Source: Rhizoctonia solani (Eukaryota; Basidiomycota; Agaricomycetes; Cantharellales; Ceratobasidiaceae). From it: a stretch of 64,000 bases of DNA. Made by a program: the position numbers and the translations under genes. A model generated the notes under the pieces. It saw nothing but the letters and a program-made list of their open reading frames with translations. It ran no database searches and had not been told where the DNA came from. Below, one piece after another: positions 35,592 to 61,416 of this stretch; position 1 is the stretch's first letter; each line of letters starts with the position of its first letter. The stretch covers positions 124,001 to 188,000 of the forward strand of contig NC_057371.1 of assembly GCF_016906535.1 (NCBI RefSeq), read 5' to 3'.

Positions 35592-35803
35592 CACGGTGGA
35601 CCCCAAAAGTGCGGATTTTCTGAACGTGAAAAATCGCCCGTTATATGCGGAGTGTTGGCAAAATCCGACCAGTTTTTCCATGAATCCGCATCCTCAACTC
35701 ACCTCTGTGTGTCGTCGAGGTACGGATTCTGCGATTTTAGGTGCGGATGTCTGGCAAAATCTGGACGTCATGCGGATTTTCCGCACTTTTGGGGTTCACC
35801 GTG
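35592..35803 (-). mobile_element. MITE family 1, copy 2 (212 bp)
   Basis: Same 212 bp element as at 4151-4362, in inverse orientation (begins CACGGTGGACCCCAAAAGTG). No matching 3-bp flanks (CCA versus GGC), so one border may have been altered. Lies 136 bp outside the left end of the Tc1 element. Confidence 0.85.
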
Positions 35804-35939
35804 GGCCATAGAGAACCTGCTATTTGTACTTTACACCAAAGTGTGATAAAGGGCACTTGGGACTGCTTGATTGAGCTGCAAGCATTGATACAGTCCTAAG
35901 TATCATCAACCCCAAGTGAGTTTCCAAGCCATACATATA

Positions 35940-36146
35940 CACTTGCGCCCAAAAAGATTGAGCCACGTGAGCTCAAATCAATGACGCTCATGCGTCACCC
36001 GCACAATTGAGAATTTGTTTACAATGTAATAGTAAATTTTGTAGATACAGTAGTATAGAACATATATACAAAATTTTAGATTGAAACTAAGTCTCCTTGT
36101 GGAGATACGTGTGAGCAAAATTTTTGGGCTGGCTCATTCTTTTTGA
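35940..36146 (+). repeat. Tc1 left terminal inverted repeat, 207 bp
   Basis: Pairs with 44622-44828. The differences I can see are all at CpG positions, where the right copy has CpA or TpG. Confidence 0.9.
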
Positions 36147-36235
36147 TCACTTTATATAAGCTACTTGGTCCTCCCTCATTGACTGCCATTTACCACCCCT
36201 TTTTACGCTTGAACACCTGCCAAGAGTGCGCAAAT

Positions 36236-36592: not shown

Positions 36593-36689
36593 TGTCTTAG
36601 GGTAGTAGATGTGGGATGGGGATAAGAGGTCAAGTTCTGAGGCTTAAGGCTCTCAGAACCCTCCTTATATATTCTACAGAGAAGGGAAG

Positions 36690-37135
36690 TGTCACAACTA
36701 AGCTTGGACCTATGATACAAGTGGGTTTAAAGTCCGTGGCCCTATCACCAATGGACTATGAAACAAAGAGGGGCAACAAAGGCCCAGGGGGTATGGTTTA
36801 GGGTAGAGGGCAACAAGGGCCTGGTAAATGATGCTTAAGTAAAGTGCACTAGGCTCAACAAGGGAGCAGGGCAATGGGTAAAGGTAAGCTTAGGATGAAT
36901 TGACAAAGAGGTCAAGTCTTGCTGTTTAGCGGCAACTTGACCTGGCTTATATACATGGAGAAAGCCACATCAAAAACAACAGTACTAAATAGTGAGTCAT
37001 TTACAATTTCACATCATATATCAAATATATCATGTGATCTTGATGAGTCATAAATATATACCAGAAAAGGAAACTATATCGGAAAAAAGGTAGAAAATAG
37101 TATAAAATCATGTCATGCCAATGAAGGTCATGACA
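36690..37135 (-). repeat. 3' LTR of the complete chromovirus
   Basis: 446 bp. Contains the same AGGTCAAGTCTTG (36909-36921) and TATA box as the 5' LTR. Confidence 0.95.
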
Positions 37136-37147
37136 TTACCCCTCTTC
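37136..37147 (-). promoter_or_regulatory. polypurine tract
   Basis: Minus strand GAAGAGGGGTAA abuts the 3' LTR; expected primer for plus-strand DNA synthesis. The second element has GAAGAGGGGGTAA at the same place. Confidence 0.8.
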
Positions 37148-40100
37148 AAGCTCCAACTGCATCAGGGTACTCCTTATGGAACTCTTCTTTTGCTTCCTTG
37201 GCATTGGCCACATTATCAATTGGCTCCCAGGAATTGCTTCCTTCATCATATCCTTTCCACTTAATCAGATACCAGAGTTTCCTTGTTTTACCACGTCCTT
37301 TCCATTTGCTATCCAGGATTTTTTCAACCTCATATTCCTCCTCTCCTTCTTTTGTGATAATGGGTGCAGGTTGGGGAGGGTTGCGTCCGTGAGGGTCAGG
37401 ATGAAATTTAGTAAGAAGATTGATATGGAACACAGGGTGTATGCGCATAGTGTGGGGTAATTGAAGTTTGTATGCGTGTGATCCTATTCTTTTGATTACT
37501 AAGTAGGGTCCTAATTTTTTATGGCTGAGTTTCATTGAGGGTCTGTCTGTGGATATGTTTTGATGACTCAGCCAGGCCTTGTCTCCTACTTGAATTTCAT
37601 CTTCGTCTTTATGTCTTTGATCATAAAAATACTTCATTCTTTCCTGGGATAATGATAGAGCTGCTTTGACTTCATTGTATCCTTTTTCTAGAAATTCTGC
37701 ATGTTTGTCTGCGTTTGGAACTACCTTGTCTGATTTTTGACCAACCGAAAATCTTGGATTATAGCCATAACAAATTTGGAAAGGGGATTTGCCTGTGGAA
37801 GTTTGCTTTAAATTGTTTAAAGCAAATTCAGCCAATGGTAGTAATGCTACCCAATCTGATTGGCGATGATTCCCAAACATTCGTATAAAGATCTCGGCTT
37901 CTCTTTGTATGCGTTCAGTCTGTCCATCTGTCTGGGGATGATACGCCGTGGAATATGTTGGCTTAATGTCCAGCCTTTTATAGAGATGACGAATGAATTT
38001 GGCGTTAAATGTGGGACCTCTATCTGAGACTGTGCTTTTGGGGAGGCCATGTAGCTTCCATATGTATGTGACAAATAGGTTGGCAATATCAATGGCAGAC
38101 AACGTGGATTGGGTGGGAATGAAGTGGACCATTTTTGAGAATTGATCAATCACTGTCAGGATAGCATCAAAACCTTCTGAAACCGGTAGTCCCACAATCA
38201 TATCATAAGCAATGTCTTCCCAGGGGCGTTCAGGAATTTGCAATGGTTTTAACAGGCCCACAGGTAATTGATTTGTTGGCTTGGACCTGATGCAGGTTTC
38301 GCAGTGGCTGACGTAAGAATTGACAAACTTTTTCAGCAATGGCCAGTAGTAACTCCTGGAGACAAGTTCTAATGTTCTAGCTTGTCCTGGATGTCCTGCC
38401 GCTAATGCATTGTGCCTAGATTCCAGGATGAGGTTCCTAATAGTGTCATCCTTTGGTACAAATATTTTCCTTGAAACCATAGTAAACCTTCTCTCAACTC
38501 CCAGTCTAAGACCTTTTCCTTGTTCTGGAGTTTGTGTAGAATTTCCTTAAGGCAATCATCTTTGTAAATGGCCTTGCCAATTAGATCATTGATTTCCTGA
38601 TCCGGAGTTATGGATGCAATAAAAAGTTCCGGTTTTAGGAGAACCTGGTTCTCTACCCCCCCTTCAAGGGGTACCAGATCATAGCGTCTTGAGAGGATAT
38701 CTGCCTTTTTGTTTTGTGCTCCTGGCCTGTAGATAATTTGGAAATTGTAATCCACTAGGAAGTTGGCCCATCTAATTTGCCGTTTATTCAAAGATTGAGA
38801 CGTGGAAAAGTACTCCAAGTTCTTATGATCCGTTAGAACTTGGACTGGCAATTCAGATCCTTCTAGCAAATGGCGCCATTCTTTAAATGCTCTAATGACC
38901 GCCAACAATTCCTTGTCAAAGATATTGTAATTTTTTTGGCAGGGGATAAGGATTTGGACAGATAGGCTACTGGAGCCAATTTCCCTTCAGAGTTGCGTTG
39001 GGATAGTATGGCTCCTGTTGCATAGTCTGATGCATTGCATTCCACATAGAATTGCCTTGTGGTATCCGGTTGTAGAAGCAATGGTGCTGTCGTAAGACAT
39101 TTTTTCAGACCCTCAAAAGACTGTTGTTCTGCCAAGTCCCATTTCCAAACACTGTCTTTCTTGAGCAAGTTGTACAAGGGTCGTGCCATATTGCCAAAGT
39201 TGGGGATGAATCGTCTATAAAAATTCACAAATCCTAAGAATTCCTGGATATTTTTGACATTCTTAGGTGTCGACCAATTCATTGCATCTGTGACTTTAGA
39301 CTGATCAACTTCTATGCCAGACTCCAATATGATGAATCCTAGGTAATCAATTTTTTTGACGTGGAAATGGCATTTTTTGATGTTGCAGAAGAGATCATTG
39401 TCCTGTAGCCTCTTTAGTACTTCTCGCACATGGGCTTTGTGATCTTTTTCATTCAAGGAGAATACTAAAATGTTGTCCAGGTAGATAATGACATAGACAT
39501 CCAAAAGGTCTTGGAATATTTCATTCATCATGTCTTGAAAAACCGCCGGTGCATTTGTTAACCCAAAAGGCATGACCAAGTACTCAAATAATCCGTATTT
39601 TGTCTTGAAGGCTGTTTTCCATTTGTCACCTTCTTTGATTCGGACTAAATTGTACCCTGCTTTAAGATCAAATTTACTAAAGATCTTGGCGCCTTGTAAC
39701 TTCTCAATAAGATTCTGTGGCAAAGGTAAAGGGTACACATTCTTCTTGGTCATGCTATTTAAGCGCCGGTAATCCACACGCATGCGTAACTTTCCATTCT
39801 TTTTCTTGACAAATAAGATTGGAGAAGCCATAGGAGACTTTGAGGGTTGAATCAATCCAGCCTTGAGTTGCTTTTCAATAGTTTCCTTGAGTTCTGCATC
39901 CTCCCTTGGGCCTAGGCTATAAATGGGGCCATGTTGGGGTTTTGCGTCAGGGAGCAACTCAATAGCAATATTGTAAGGACAATGAGGCGGTAGTTTGGAT
40001 GATTCCTCTTCTAAAAAGACTCTAGAGAATTCTTGGTAGGGAGTGGGGATTTCTTCTACTGCTTTGAGTTCTAAAACAGCAGGTGCAGGTAGGCAATTAT

Positions 40101-40563
40101 TGGAACAGTATAACAAATTAAAGACAAGTGTATGTTTTTCCCATGATATTTGGGGGTTATGCTTTTTTAGCCATGACATTCCTAAAACTAACTGATGGTT
40201 GCCAATGTTTGAGATATGGCATTCTAGTTCTTTGGTATGGTTACCAATAGTGCATTTGAAACAAGTGAAATGAGTGATTTGGCTGGAATCAATTTCTTGG
40301 CCATCAATAACGCGGAGTTTTTTAGGAATTGGATGAAGGTAGGTGGGAAGTCAATAGGTTTCTACCAAAAGAGGGTGTATGAAGCACGACGTAGCTCCAG
40401 AATCAATCATGGCTTTTCCTTGAAAAGGTTTAGCCGAAAAGCTGGATTTTTGGGTTTTAGGAGATTCACACGGATTTGCAATAAACAACGCATATATTTG
40501 AGAGGAATTACATAATGAGAATATTTCAAGATTATTGTTTACATGGTGCAAATCCGCAAGCAT
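37146..40563 (-). pseudogene. chromovirus pol: protease, RT, RNase H, integrase, chromodomain
   Basis: Protease AMIDSGATSCFIHP (about 40410). After it an in-frame TGA at 40350-40348. RT (40179-about 39000) with LKAGLIQPSKSP, FSKFDLKAGYNLVRI, LVMPFGLTNAP and the active-site box IIYLDNILVFS, where YLDD is expected. RNase H with AYLSKSLSP and VLTDHKNLEYF. Integrase (38480-37146) has the zinc finger HNALAAGHPGQ...CETCIRSK, catalytic core VIDQF, VSDRGPTF and QREAEIFIRMF, and a C-terminal chromodomain with WYLIKWKGYDEGSNSWEP. One base is missing in A-runs near 38935 and again near 38467, each shifting the frame. The chromodomain would direct integration to heterochromatin. Confidence 0.93.
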
Positions 40564-40640: not shown

Positions 40641-41945
40641 TCAATTTTCTTCTTTAGGCCTTTCCCAAGACCATTCAACATTAGCCACATGTCCAGACAT
40701 GGGCTTAGAGGGGCAACTGCGTGCAAAATGACCTTTTCCACCGCATACATGGCATGTGAGATTTGAAAATCCTCTCCCATCAAGATCCATGGGACCTGGA
40801 CCTTTAGAGTTTGAGGCTAGAATAGGAGTAGGTGCAATGATGGTTTTAACAGGTGCAGCCGCAGCGGGGCGTTCATCTTTCTTAAGGGAGGGGAATGGAA
40901 TCATTGTGTCCTTGGATTCTCCATTCCACCTGACATTTGGCATGTTGCCAGAGGTAGTGCAAACAATTGAAGTAATAGCGCCTTTCTTGGCGCGGCGAGT
41001 GGTTGGATCAATCATATAGACATTGTCCCCAACATTAAGACGAGTACAAGTAGGAGTGGGGTTGGAAGTAGGGGTGGAGACAGTGTTGGAAGACGTACAA
41101 GCAGCGGAGACAGATGGGTTGGAAAGACGAGTTGACTCAATGTGGTTGGCAATTTCTTCTGCCTTGTCATACACTTGTTGAGCCGTAGCACAACGCCATT
41201 GGAACATAGTGGAAAGCATGATGTCCTTGATATTGTTTTGGAGGCCATTGTAGTACTTATTGCGTAACGTCTCATTGCTGTACCCTAAGGACACTGAGTA
41301 CTGTTGGAATTTGCAAGTATATTCTTGTACTGATGCTTTCTGTCGTAAATTATTCCATTTTTGGCAGTACTTCTCATCACAATTTGTATCTACGTAATGC
41401 TTTGTGAACTCGGCCCAAAATGTATCAATATCTTCCAATAAGGGAACCGCCTCTCCCCTGAACACCTTCCTTTCCTTGTATGGGCGTACCCAATCTTCCG
41501 CAGCACCTTCAAAATATGACGTTACCCACAAGATTTTTTCCTTGTGGGATTGATTGGCCCCTTTTGCCCTTATATAGGCTTGGCAGGCAATAATGAAGTT
41601 AAGGGCGTCCTCTTTCTTGCCATTGAACTTATTGGGCTTGGCAAATTTTAAATCTGAAGACGTAGAAACAGGTGAGGAAGTGTGGGCAGTGGTGGCTGTG
41701 CTTGTACCAGCAGGTGGGGGAGGTGGAGGCGGGGCCATGGGACGAGTGGTAGACATGTGGAGCAATTGATCTTGCACCACCTGGATGGAGGCAGCAGCCC
41801 CTTGAATTTGATTAGAATAAAACACATGTTGGTTACGCAACTGATTGCGATGTTCCTTGAGTTCAGCCCTTAGCAATGCTAATTGATCATGTTGCGCTTT
41901 GTAGGCTCCTTGTAATTGCAAGAATTCTTTTTTTAAAATAATCAT
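40641..41945 (-). CDS. chromovirus Gag with CCHC zinc knuckle
   Basis: 434 codons. N-terminal coiled-coil stretch LKKEFLQLQGAYKAQHDQLA; Pro-rich spacer; capsid core with FAKPNKFNGKKEDALNFI and SYFEGAAEDWVRPY (retrotransposon gag family); then basic linker and the zinc knuckle CHVCGGKGHFARSC near the end. Stops at a TGA at 40643-40641, 18 codons before a second stop; pol lies in the -1 frame relative to gag. Forms the virus-like particle and packages RNA. It seems intact, but the true N-terminus may lie in the preceding frame. Confidence 0.85.
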   Translation of the reverse strand: MIILKKEFLQLQGAYKAQHDQLALLRAELKEHRNQLRNQHVFYSNQIQGAAASIQVVQDQLLHMSTTRPMAPPPPPPPAGTSTATTAHTSSPVSTSSDLKFAKPNKFNGKKEDALNFIIACQAYIRAKGANQSHKEKILWVTSYFEGAAEDWVRPYKERKVFRGEAVPLLEDIDTFWAEFTKHYVDTNCDEKYCQKWNNLRQKASVQEYTCKFQQYSVSLGYSNETLRNKYYNGLQNNIKDIMLSTMFQWRCATAQQVYDKAEEIANHIESTRLSNPSVSAACTSSNTVSTPTSNPTPTCTRLNVGDNVYMIDPTTRRAKKGAITSIVCTTSGNMPNVRWNGESKDTMIPFPSLKKDERPAAAAPVKTIIAPTPILASNSKGPGPMDLDGRGFSNLTCHVCGGKGHFARSCPSKPMSGHVANVEWSWERPKEEN

Positions 41946-42590
41946 ATTTGGGCAACCATATCAAGGAGTTCACAATCTGACATTTGATCAAATGACATGG
42001 GAGAATATACATGTGGCGGCACAGCCGCAGGGGCAGGAGTATGAGTTCGGGAAGATGGGGCAGACCACCCTGATTGGATTTGGGAAGAAGACAAATTAGT
42101 CTCTCCCATCACGCCCAAACCAGGCATTGTCATATGAGACTGCAAAAAACTCATATTCTTTGTAATAGTGGATTTGCCCTTTTCTGTCTTGGGTGATATC
42201 CTGAATAGAACAATGGAAATTGTCTAGCTTGATTTCTTTTTCAACCAGCAGTTGATCCTTTTCTTCAATGCGCCTTTCTTGCTCTTCAATTGTAAGAGCT
42301 AAGTCTCGATTGTGAGATTCAAGATTGGCAATAAGGTTCTTTTGCTCCTGAAGATCTGCCTTGTAGATAGTATTGAGGCGCTCGGCAAATGATTTATGAT
42401 GTTTGATATGGGCAATAGTTTGGACTAGCCCTGGTTCTTTGATTTGAGCAATATGTTCTTCTAGGTTGTTGATGCGACCAACTAATACGTGGTTAATGTT
42501 GCTAATGGTTTTTTCAAGGTAGAGGTAGTGGGTGACAATGGAATAAGGCCAAAAGATGGCAAAAAGGATGAGATCTAAAAAATCAAACAC
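41942..42590 (-). pseudogene. 5' part of chromovirus gag region, coiled coil, frame-shifted
   Basis: Two overlapping frames: 42590-42096 (begins MFDFLDLILFAIFWPYS; long coiled coil with EKDQLLVEKEIKLDN) and 42154-41942 (MSFLQSHMTMPGLGVMGE...SFDQMSDCELLDMVAQI), then gag at 41945. They probably formed one longer reading frame or a separate small ORF. The join at 41945 is off by a few bases. Confidence 0.5.
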
Positions 42591-42955
42591 TAGGATGCGT
42601 TCCCAATATGAATTGGTACTTGATCAGATAGATGAAACGGATTTATAGCGCTAAATACTAACTGTTTGCTTCCCCACTAGCGTTAGACTATCCCTATACT
42701 AATATCAGCAGCTGTGTACAAGCGTGATTATTAATCGGGTTTTTAGTAAGCGGAGGTTTGGCTGACTAACAGCGTATGGCTAAGGGTGCGGACACCTTGG
42801 TATGCGGACGATTGCTGGCAAAGGGCTATCCCGCAACCTTACTGGTACTTGTATTCCTGTCTTTGATTATTACACAGGGGCTACAATGTGATACCGTTTC
42901 AGGTTTTGGTGCTTATCTAAGCGCAGTTCTTGTTTGTTGACAAGAGTACGAGTAA

Positions 42956-42968
42956 CAAGACTTGACCT
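42956..42968 (-). promoter_or_regulatory. primer-binding site (self-priming type)
   Basis: Minus-strand AGGTCAAGTCTTG begins 2 nt inside the 5' LTR border. It is perfectly complementary over 13 nt to CAAGACTTGACCT at 43202-43190 in the LTR. It lacks the TGG start typical of tRNA-primed sites. Confidence 0.85.
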
Positions 42969-43189
42969 AGTGTCACGACTAAGCTCGGACCTATGATACA
43001 AGTGGGTTTAAAGTCTGTGGCCCTATCACCAATGGACTATGAAACAAAGAGGGGCAACAAAGGCCCAGGGGGTATGGTTTAGGGTAGAGGGCAACAAGGG
43101 CCTGGTAAATGATGCTTAAGTAAAGTGCACTAGGCTCAACAAGGGAGCAGGGCAATGGGTAAAGGTAAGCTTAGGATGAATTGACAAAG

Positions 43190-43202
43190 AGGTCAAGTCT
43201 TG
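43190..43202 (-). promoter_or_regulatory. predicted transcript 5' end / self-primer
   Basis: CAAGACTTGACCT starts 32 nt below the TATA box, the normal distance for a transcription start, and can pair with the primer-binding site. This matches the mechanism known for Tf1. Confidence 0.8.
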
Positions 43203-43224
43203 CTGTTTAGCGGCAACTTGACCT

Positions 43225-43234
43225 GGCTTATATA
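43225..43234 (-). promoter_or_regulatory. LTR TATA box
   Basis: TATATAAGCC on the minus strand, 32 nt above the predicted RNA start. Confidence 0.8.
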
Positions 43235-43648
43235 CATGGAGAAAGCCACATCAAAAACAACAGTACTAAATAGTGAGTCATTTACAATTTCACATCATAT
43301 ATCAAATATATCATGTGATCTTGATGAGTCATAAATATATACCAGAAAAGGAAACTATATCGGAAAAAAGGTAGAAAATAGTATAAAATCATGTCATGCC
43401 AATGAAGGTCATGACAGGAAGAGTAATTACATGTACAAACATAACAACAAAGATAAGGTCACATGACCAGAGATAAGAAAACAAGATCACATGGCTAAAG
43501 GTCATGTGATGAGATAACATAATGAGCGCTCAGCGCCTAAATAGCATAAAGATGCATATATCCATAAATCTTCAAGAAAATAGCGCATATATTCACTATT
43601 TCTTCAACTTAGTGGATTTTAAGGTGGTCACACCTCTAGGGCATGACA

Positions 43649-44544
43649 GTATGGACTTACTGACCGCCCACTTGATCAACACAATCCCATTCCTGGGCCC
43701 CACAAAAGTTAACCCCCAGCAATGTCAGATTTGCCGCTTTGGCCCTAGCTTGGAGTAGAGTACCAACAGCAGTAAATATTAGACAGCAGTACTTCCCTGC
43801 TGTTGGGTCCTCTACCCTCCGCCGCTACCTCCAAGAGCTGGGTTTATGGCTGTACAAACGCCACCAAGTACCCCTGCTCACTTATTGGCATAGAAAAGCC
43901 CATTGCGCATGGGCCCACAGTCAATTATTCTGGCCACAATCATGCTGGGACAACATTGTCTTCTTGGACAAAGTCCAAATCAAGTTATTTGGGGCCAACA
44001 GCGGCCAATATTATTGGAGGCAACCTGGTGAGTCCCTGTATAATCCCCAATACACCAAAAAGACAATATCTTATGGTGGCAGGGTATCTTCATTTGGGGG
44101 TGCATTACCCAAGAGGGAGTTGGGCAATTGTACCTTATACAATGCAAGCTGAATGCCCTGGGATACATTGAAATCCTTGGGGACACCTTCTTTGGAACCC
44201 TCACCAACTATAAAATCACCCCATTTGACATTACATTCCAGCACAACCAAGATCCAAAGCATACAGCCAGGCTGACACAATGTTGGCTTGCCAGTTGGGG
44301 CGTAAGCGTCCTCCCATGGCTGTCAAAAAGCCTGGATTTGAACATAATCAAGAATGTCTGGTGGCATCTGAAGGAGCGCATGCGTACTCACCAACCTCCT
44401 GCTTTGAATAAGGAAGAATTATGGAAAATAGTGAGGGACAAATGGAAACAAATTTCCCCAAAATATATTGGCAATTTGTATGATTCATTACTGCATCAAG
44501 TACAAGCTGTGTATTTAGCTAAAGGTGGAAACACCAAATACTAA
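43649..44544 (+). pseudogene. Tc1 transposase, catalytic part
   Basis: Continues the fragment at 36236-36592. Segments: AWSRVPTAVNIRQQYFPAVGSS and STLRRYLQELGLWLYKR (second DNA-binding helix region); DNIVFLDKVQIKLFG, where the first catalytic Asp is kept but Glu after it is Lys; a frameshift near 44080; LYLIQCKLNALGYIEIL; ITFQHNQDPKHTA, where the second catalytic Asp is Asn; SLDLNIIKNVWWHLKERM, where the third catalytic acid is Lys. The last two changes fit G-to-A transitions. Non-functional. Confidence 0.85.
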
Positions 44545-44621
44545 AATTTGTATCCAAATTATTCAGTTTTGCATGTCATTTTGGGTGCATGCATGCAGTT
44601 GCAGGTGCAATTTGAAAATGC

Positions 44622-44828
44622 TCAAAAAGAATGAGCCAGCCCAAAAATTTTGCTCACATGTATCTCCACAAGGAGACTTAGTTTCAATCTAAAATTTTGT
44701 ATATATGTTCTATACTACTGTATCTACAAAATTTACTATTACATTGTAAACAAATTCTCAATTGTGCGGGTGATGCATGAGTGTCATTGATTTGAGCTCA
44801 TGTGGCTCAATCTTTTTGGGCGCAAGTG
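44622..44828 (-). repeat. Tc1 right terminal inverted repeat, 207 bp
   Basis: Reverse complement of 35940-36146 apart from CpG transitions; followed by the TA target duplication. Confidence 0.9.
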
Positions 44829-44830
44829 TA

Positions 44831-45151
44831 TGTGTTGAAGATGAATGTTGTATATAGTTATGCATGACATGGCTGGGTAAACCAAGCAGCATGGCCAAAC
44901 TACATAACCAAAAATGGTCTTACATATTGCTATTATTGCCATTTTAGTACTACTGTTTGGGAGCTACTCAGAATGGCCTGCAGCCACAATGCCAAGCGTA
45001 AACTGACAGACAAACAGACGCCTGGGCCAGGGCCTGAGAGGTGAGTGTGACTCATGGACTGAGTGGGGCATACAAGCTTGACATCCCAGTAACAGGGGAT
45101 GCAGGTGGGAAAAAAGCCACTGAATGTGTTGCTAGAACCATCTGTCAACAG
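44831..45151. other. spacer between Tc1 element and MITE
   Basis: About 320 bp, no gene or repeat recognised. Confidence 0.4.
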
Positions 45152-45931
45152 CATGGTGAACCCCAAAAGTGCAGAAAATCCACATAATGTCCAGATTTTG
45201 CCAGACATCTGCACCTAAAATAGCAGAATCTGCACCTCAACAACACACAGGGGTGAGTTGAGGATGCGGATTCATGGAAAAACTGGTCAGATTTTGCCAA
45301 CACTCCGCATATAACGGGCGATTTTTCACGTTCAGAAAATCCGCACTTTTGGTGTTACAACCCCCTAACATATACCATTCGATTTGCACAATTTTTCTAT
45401 TATTTTTAGTATTTTTTACGGACTCTTTATCTTTACTTTTTCAATCACGTGATCTTGGCGCTTAAAATGCCAAGATGCCAAGCCAAGATGCCGTGCCAAG
45501 GGCGCTTAGGAGAAATCCATGCTTCTGCGCAGCCCGCAGCATGCTTCTTTATGCCCTTCCTTTCTCATGCGCACAGACCATGTAGATAGTGCGCCCTTGT
45601 CTATATATACAGCAGGAAAATTGCTTGGGAACACCAAGTCAATTTTACCTTGTCTCTTACCCATTAGAGAAGGTATCCAGCCAGCTAAGTAGCCGGCCCT
45701 CAGTAGACAGAAGACACTTACCCCCTCACCTTACCTACCACACCTCCAGGCTTCTGGCCCCCTCTGCATTGACAGTAGATAGTTAGTTGTTGCCCTAAGC
45801 AACTTAGTAGTTAGTAGTTAGCCTTACTTAGTTAGATTACATAAGTAGTGTAGTAGTACAGCCTTAAGCGCCCAACCCCCACTAGCAAGTACCCACATTA
45901 CAGTGGTGTACAACATTTGGGGTCCACTGTG
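45152..45931 (+). mobile_element. MITE family 1, copy 3, split by a solo LTR
   Basis: Left part 45152-45352 (201 bp) and right part 45921-45931 (11 bp) sum to 212 bp, the family length. Flanked by CAG on both sides (45149-45151, 45932-45934). The left part has lost most CpG sites present in copy 1. The interruption is a 563 bp solo LTR. Confidence 0.9.
45353..45915 (+). mobile_element. solo LTR, family B, inside the MITE (563 bp)
   Basis: Begins TGTTACAACCCCCTAAC and ends GTGTACAACA, with the 5-bp duplication TTTGG (45348-45352, 45916-45920). Has a CTATATATACAGC TATA-like box near 45600. Same family as 59859-60404 and 61931-62931. Confidence 0.92.
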
Positions 45932-60965: not shown

Positions 60966-61416
60966 TGTCACAACTCAGCTCAGACCTATGGTACAAGGGG
61001 GCTTAAAGTCTGTGGCCCTATCACCAATGGACTATGAAACAAGGTAGAGGGGCAACAAGGGCCCAAGGGTTATGGTTTGGGGGTAGAGGGCAACAATGGC
61101 CTGGTTAATGATGTCTTAGTTAAAGTGCACTATGCTCAACAAGGGAGCAGGGCAATGGGTAGGTGAGAACTGAGGGTGAATTGACAAAGAGGTCAAGTCT
61201 TGCTGTTTTAGCAGCAACTTGACCTGGTTTAAATACATGAGACAAGCCACATCAAAAACAACAGTACTAAATAGTGAGTCATTTACAATTTCACATCATG
61301 TATCAAATATGTCATGTGATCTTGATGAGTCATAAATATATACCAAAAAAGGAAACTGTCTCAAAAAAAGATAGAAAATAGTAAAAAATTATGTCATGCC
61401 AATGAAGGTCATGACA
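60966..61416 (-). repeat. 3' LTR of the second chromovirus (451 bp)
   Basis: Begins TGTCACAACTCAGCTC and ends GGTCATGACA on the plus strand; aligns throughout with the LTRs at 36690 and 42971. Confidence 0.92.

Follow-up and report, generated by a model that had tools for sequence, protein, structure and literature searches.

Introduction

How does an LTR retrotransposon start its minus-strand DNA when the region next to its 5' LTR carries no tRNA-type primer site? The question is raised by an element of Rhizoctonia solani (40.7-Mb genome, 16 contigs) that lies in the window, the whole 64,000-nucleotide stretch of DNA analysed here, and for which a preliminary description had proposed a self-primed start resembling that of Tf1. 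According to the parts of the literature consulted, self-priming was first shown for Tf1 and has been inferred for other Tf1/sushi chromoviruses, the inferred cases coming from fungi, vertebrates and non-seed plants (PMC7175516, PMC4600332, PMC10085805, PMC6317226). In Tf1, pairing involves the first 11 nucleotides of the RNA, which RNase H cleaves between nucleotides 11 and 12 (PMC7175516), and the leader is described as a "pretzel" structure of three duplexes (PMC10085805). Elsewhere, self-priming has been assigned where part of the LTR can pair, over 10 nt or more, with a site at an offset of 0-5 nt from the inner end of the 5' LTR (PMC6317226). Among the papers listed for R. solani, we found none on self-priming or on primer binding sites of LTR retrotransposons. 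The comparisons described below make it highly probable (about 0.9), as far as sequence can indicate, that the window element starts reverse transcription from its own RNA.

The window element and its surroundings

Comparison of the two LTRs with each other placed the element at 43416-36690 on the minus strand, with LTRs of 446 bp that are 99.3% alike and a 5-bp target duplication. Its features, in the order in which the element is read, are as follows.

43417..43421, minus strand: target-site duplication, 5' side, 5 bp, CTTCC on the minus strand
42971..43416, minus strand: 5' LTR, TGTCAT...GTGACA, 446 bp, delimited by comparison with the 3' LTR
43227..43234, minus strand: promoter box TATATAAG
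43214..43224, minus strand: U3 arm AGGTCAAGTTG, complementary to the primer; the predicted hairpin spans the U3/R border
43190..43201, minus strand: predicted RNA 5' end and 12-nt self-primer AAGACTTGACCT, with A43201 as predicted +1
42969..42970, minus strand: 2-nt spacer (CT) separating primer site and LTR end; equally long in all four families
42957..42968, minus strand: primer binding site, 12 nt, AGGTCAAGTCTT; in the window copy 42956 pairs too
42951..42956, minus strand: 6 nt adjoining the primer site, the most variable among family-A copies in transversions and indels
40641..41945, minus strand: gag-like ORF with CCHC knuckle
38863..40179, minus strand: RT / RNase H ORF
38402..38908, minus strand: remainder of RNase H in another frame, pol being broken in the window copy
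37146..38480, minus strand: ORF for integrase, SH3_Tf2-1 and chromodomain
37136..37147, minus strand: polypurine tract GAAGAGGGGTAA, preceding the 3' LTR
36690..37135, minus strand: 3' LTR, 446 bp, delimited by comparison with the 5' LTR
36685..36689, minus strand: target-site duplication, 3' side, 5 bp, CTTCC

A Pfam profile search identified a gag-like ORF with CCHC knuckle and the domains RVT_1, RNase H and rve, together with SH3_Tf2-1 (69 bits, cut-off 30) and Chromo (52.8 bits, cut-off 25.1), with pol split into overlapping frames. The element is a Ty3/gypsy chromovirus, and its integrase ends in a chromodomain, one of the features by which the Tf1/sushi group is recognised; the database name "Tf2 protein" carried by homologues in R. 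solani is annotation only. Judged from its sequence, the window element has three of the Tf1/sushi features, namely a chromodomain pol, a site complementary to the LTR and the lack of a tRNA site. Upstream of gag, an ORF of 164 aa (42096-42590, minus strand) has no Pfam match.

A third LTR is located at 60966-61416 (minus strand) and is 90.5% like the LTR of the window element. Since a polypurine tract and an apparent chromodomain end precede it on the minus strand, we consider it the 3' LTR of a second element of the same family, family A, the 5' LTR of which may be the copy at C2:192817-193164 (L103), outside the window. The window element is itself flanked by two pairs of inverted repeats (35600-36153 and 44615-45355; 221 nt at 97% and 204 nt at 93%), and the ORF 43739-44152 shows a weak likeness to the helix-turn-helix of a Tc3-type transposase (21.4 bits, below the Pfam cut-off of 31.5). 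Based on these repeats and this ORF, the LTR element may be nested in a Tc1/mariner-like element.

Primer and primer site in family A

The proposal of self-priming rested on a perfect complementarity of 13 nt between CAAGACTTGACCT (43202-43190) and AGGTCAAGTCTTG (42968-42956), both on the minus strand, and this match is present at exactly those positions, CAAGACTTGACCT recurring in the 3' LTR (36921-36909) and in the third LTR (61202-61190). The site had been placed immediately inside the 5' LTR, which is incorrect, as the LTR (TG..CA) ends at 42971 and is followed by CT and then by the site. The length of the pairing was also revised. Of 41 matches listed for family A, 21 copies reach past the LTR end (query position at least 344 of 351), and all 21 share an identical primer, AAGACTTGACCT, and an identical site, AGGTCAAGTCTT, whereas 76 of 219 columns vary in the rest of R-U5 of the same copies. 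The 13th pair, exact in the window copy, occurs in 10 of the 21, and this led us to reject the initial reading of the match as a 13-nt primer with C43202 as its first base. The invariance of 12 pairs against the variability of the 13th indicates A43201 as the likely start of the RNA, and the working primer is thus probably the 12 nt from A43201, with a C preceding it. The number 21 overstates the independent insertions of family A, since some copies look like segmental duplicates; across the families sampled, apparent duplicates, alike wherever compared, include L106/L107, L108/L125 and L111/L112.

The promoter box TATATAAG starts 32 nt above C43202, as previously described, and therefore 33 nt above the revised start. 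Eight of the 21 family-A copies have TATTTAAA as their box, and owing to a 1-nt indel the box starts 33 or 34 nt above the predicted RNA start.

Matching primers and sites in four families

Covariation of primer and primer site across family members had been put forward as a check of the self-priming proposal, and when it was carried out on four families of one genome the outcome was positive. We hand-picked 12 elements by coordinates and ORF lengths, for a spread of classes, from 150 RT and 150 gag places scored out of a larger set of candidates, and a first scan of their 5' ends gave TATA-linked matches in three. The LTR ends, obtained by comparing both LTRs of one element, were resolved for nine of the 12 (two were trimmed by 1 nt to TG..CA); three elements gave no LTR pair, and families C (L070) and F (L072, L080) yielded none that was usable in the stretches compared. 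In all nine, as well as in the window element, the best complement in the entire LTR to the 13 nt starting 2 nt after CA is positioned 30-34 nt below the TATA box. These ten complements comprise 11-13 Watson-Crick pairs with at most two G.U pairs and at most one mismatch in 13, one mismatch being present in four of the ten elements and, in L069, falling outside the 12-nt primer.

The ten elements belong to four families with the primers AAGACTTGACCT (A), AGAACTCAACCT (B), AAGTCGATTTTAC (D) and AGGTCGATTACCT (E). The longest exact complement within the own LTR is 13, 12, 13 and 13 nt in A, B, D and E, respectively, while in LTRs of the other families it is 0 (under a floor of 8 nt) or, once, 8 nt. 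A complement as long as that of the own family was reached in 2, 1, 0 and 0 of 2000 shuffled LTRs of A, B, D and E, respectively, where the shuffles preserved dinucleotides and were scored irrespective of position relative to TATA. In the representatives of all four families, an exact complement of 12-13 nt at an offset of 2 nt lies within the bounds by which self-priming has been assigned elsewhere. For every site, the best-pairing primer is that of the same family, and the true assignment of primers to sites ranks first among 24. Between the representatives of any two families, 4-10 of the 12 positions are changed in primer and site alike without loss of pairing, the lack of one-sided changes among the representatives being a matter of choice, since these were picked for an exact match. 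The RTs of A, B and D are 65-71% identical (that of E was outside the comparison), and LTRs of different families do not align except for one 28-nt match between D and E. In all four families the predicted +1 is an A after C; in B, D and E the sequences at this point are C|AGAAC, C|AAGTC and C|AGGTC, respectively, with the predicted start following the bar. The representatives of B, D and E likewise have a TATA box at a distance of 32-34 nt upstream of this A and a site 2 nt after CA. Different primers that match their own sites in four families argue that the pairing is used. Among viral_contigs, 15 stretches fitted a pattern for relatives and none was confirmed.

At the presumed cleavage point (marked by a stroke), the RNA reads ACCU/CUU in A, B and E and UUAC/CUC in D, and ACCU/CUU is a possible conserved context for RNase H cleavage.

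Candidate tRNA primers

An alternative explanation is that a cellular tRNA, or half of one, primes these elements and that the match to the LTR is incidental. Most plant LTR elements surveyed are primed by tRNAs, and half-tRNA primers exist (PMC6317226, in the sections consulted). As the preliminary description had stated for the window element, a tRNA-type TGG primer site is missing; across the four families, TGG is absent from the first 20 nucleotides inside the LTR. A tRNA fitting better than the LTR, which would have spoken against self-priming, was sought among 30 of 61 matching tRNA loci (four of the 30 were not called by ARAGORN), and the best complement in these 20 nucleotides was 7-8 nt as opposed to 12-13 nt for the own LTR. 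In addition, from one family to the next, a change in the LTR is accompanied by a change in the site. The tRNAs named in this half of the matches did not include initiator-Met, and a half-tRNA primer is therefore unlikely yet conceivable for these families, as judged from sequence complementarity. Overall, we give priming by a tRNA hardly any chance.

Variation of the primer and its site within families

The B and E copies of the family comparison were supplemented with 18 further copies each, taken from matches extending past the LTR end. Seven of 19 copies of B, 7 of 20 of E and 1 of 6 of D had a perfectly paired primer. G.U pairs were the only departure in 6 of 19, 6 of 20 and 3 of 6 copies, and a mismatch in the primer was present in 6 of 19, 7 of 20 and 2 of 6, respectively, with all mismatches at one CpG. 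The departures in B, D and E are transitions (C/T, G/A) at the CpG in primer and site; the primer of family A has no CpG, and family A shows no departures. No compensation was detected within families, the Watson-Crick matches at the CpG amounting to 7 in B and 7 in E compared to 6.6 and 6.7 expected from independent decay (hand count). Hence, the evidence for covariation is the change between families.

The CpG in primer and site (L069, L071, L073-L079, L108-L143) is being lost through transitions, and in B and E the two sides change independently of each other, suggesting that CpG methylation or a RIP-like process acted on B, D and E elements after insertion. Transversions in primer or site were absent from 67 copies (21 A, 19 B, 20 E and 7 D), as compared to 0.026-0.082 per site in the remaining R-U5; one indel was counted in a D site.

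In the alignment of family A, positions 42951-42956 and their equivalents in L093-L107 form the top 6-nt window for transversions and indels (0.342 per site, median 0.008). These 6 nt may possibly bear the traces of untemplated addition by reverse transcriptase at a capped RNA end. The variability just past the site is also raised in D and E, where the top windows lie elsewhere, and B has no transversion or indel there. We do not place the start of the RNA by this junction alone, as the peaks of D and E are elsewhere, B shows nothing and slippage in a T-rich stretch fits equally well.

Predicted folds of the leader RNA and the route of priming

The predicted leaders are 291-331 nt long, and free folding pairs the whole primer with the site in A, B and E; in D the duplex of primer and site is not formed. 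Enforcing this duplex was tried and brought no gain, as it already forms freely in A, B and E and was without effect in D. In family A, a helix of 5 bp additionally joins the LTR end to the stretch that follows the primer, resembling one arm of the Tf1 "pretzel". A third duplex of the Tf1 type downstream of the site did not exceed shuffles in any of the four families (p 0.12-0.83), and the full Tf1 structure is thus not established.

That free folding makes this stem in three of four families would also be expected if the match were an inverted repeat maintained for some other function, for example as a leader stem for packaging or translation, with priming done another way. The presence of another arm complementary to the primer, in U3, points in the same direction. 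However, the match starts exactly 2 nt after CA in ten elements, which is where minus-strand synthesis has to begin if the LTR end is to be produced; in the four representatives, the match extends to an A after C that is 32-34 nt below TATA. A stem with a separate primer also sits poorly with the absence of a TGG site, and we consider it very unlikely.

Self-priming is therefore the reading that we prefer, supported as it is by covariation across families, the worse fit of tRNAs (30 loci) and the chromovirus domains; the Tf1-like start suggested in the preliminary description gains support in this respect. According to this reading, transcription would begin at A43201, and the RNA would fold back so that its first 12 nt anneal to the primer site, at an offset of 2 nt from the 5' LTR. 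A nick by RNase H would subsequently follow after nucleotide 12, and the freed 3' end would prime minus-strand DNA. For the sequences themselves, the comparisons show complementarity of primer and site, fixed position, conservation within family A and co-change across four families.

A U3 arm complementary to the primer

In all four families, a stretch between TATA and the start is predicted to pair with the primer in a hairpin. The fold energies of arm and primer are -16.7, -19.1, -15.0 and -11.3 kcal/mol in A, B, D and E (z -4.0, -3.6, -4.7 and -2.3, respectively). When arms were swapped among the families, the set combining each arm with its own primer was the best of 24 assignments; all four arms fold best with their own primer, and three of four primers with their own arm. 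Among windows of the LTR, the hairpin ranks 1 of 397 in A and 8 of 490 in B, where all better windows overlap it (shifts of 1-3 nt), and 53 of 512 in D and 53 of 531 in E.

Since the arm belongs to U3, it adjoins the primer copy of the 3' LTR but is missing from the predicted RNA 5' end. In all four families, the primer is computed to be less accessible in its 3' copy than in its 5' copy (0.29, 0.33, 0.16 and 0.40 versus 0.44, 0.91, 0.59 and 0.50 in A, B, D and E, respectively), with a small difference between the copies in A and E. A self-primed RNA would carry the primer sequence twice, once at each end, and by locking the 3' copy in a hairpin the U3 arm would leave the true 5' end as the only one to reach the site; the arm would also disable transcripts starting too far upstream. 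We offer tentatively, and consider rather unlikely, that primer, site and U3 arm form a three-part set changing together in which the arm locks the 3' primer copy.

The main rival is a function in the promoter, where the arm would be a feature of the DNA, such as a palindromic site for a protein, rather than a lock in the RNA. Its location between TATA and the start fits this explanation, as do the modest ranks of the hairpin in D and E given above, and hairpins are often involved in LTR promoters (PMC3601003, from the part consulted). On the other hand, the arm tracks the primer across families, its own assignment being the best of 24, and a protein site would not need such a match. We place the promoter function somewhat short of even odds. 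No mention of a U3 arm pairing with a self-primer was found in the literature consulted, which is weak evidence of absence, as the original Tf1 papers were covered incompletely.

Comparison with known elements and implications

The R. solani elements have in common with Tf1 and Tf2 of Schizosaccharomyces pombe an integrase with a chromodomain, an RNA 5' end (predicted here) that is complementary to a site inside the 5' LTR, and the lack of a tRNA site. They differ from Tf1 in the length of the primer (12-13 nt compared to 11 nt) and in its sequence. Of the Tf1 "pretzel", as outlined in the source consulted, they show the central duplex (A, B and E) and the 5-bp helix of the LTR end (A). The predicted pairing of a U3 arm with the primer is a feature of the R. 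solani elements, Tf1 having been outside the arm comparison. For Tj1 of S. japonicus and for Tosmo and Tcry of other fission yeasts, a self-primer has likewise been inferred from complementarity between LTR and site; their hosts are ascomycetes, and the sections of the two papers at hand leave a U3 arm unmentioned (PMC4600332, PMC10085805). Tcn1 of Cryptococcus is also from a basidiomycete and has been proposed to be self-primed (PMC7175516, excerpt); it belongs to another family and another host and is likened here by description. In Ty3 of Saccharomyces cerevisiae, the primer pairs in a bipartite manner with a 5' site and a stretch of U3 (PMC5371799, excerpt), which loosely resembles the combination of site and U3 arm. 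In contrast, the primer of Ty3 is the initiator-Met tRNA, whereas that of the R. solani elements would be their own RNA, with the U3 arm beside the 3' primer copy.

Self-priming as such is already known from Tf1/sushi chromoviruses, and the U3 arm pairing with the primer is a possible new detail that was less expected. Four families with different and yet matching primers amount to a natural mutate-and-restore experiment, and they provide a primer length of 12-13 nt, a spacing of 2 nt and a start site predicted with single-base precision. A lock by the U3 arm, if true, would explain how a self-primed RNA carrying two identical primers avoids the wrong one.
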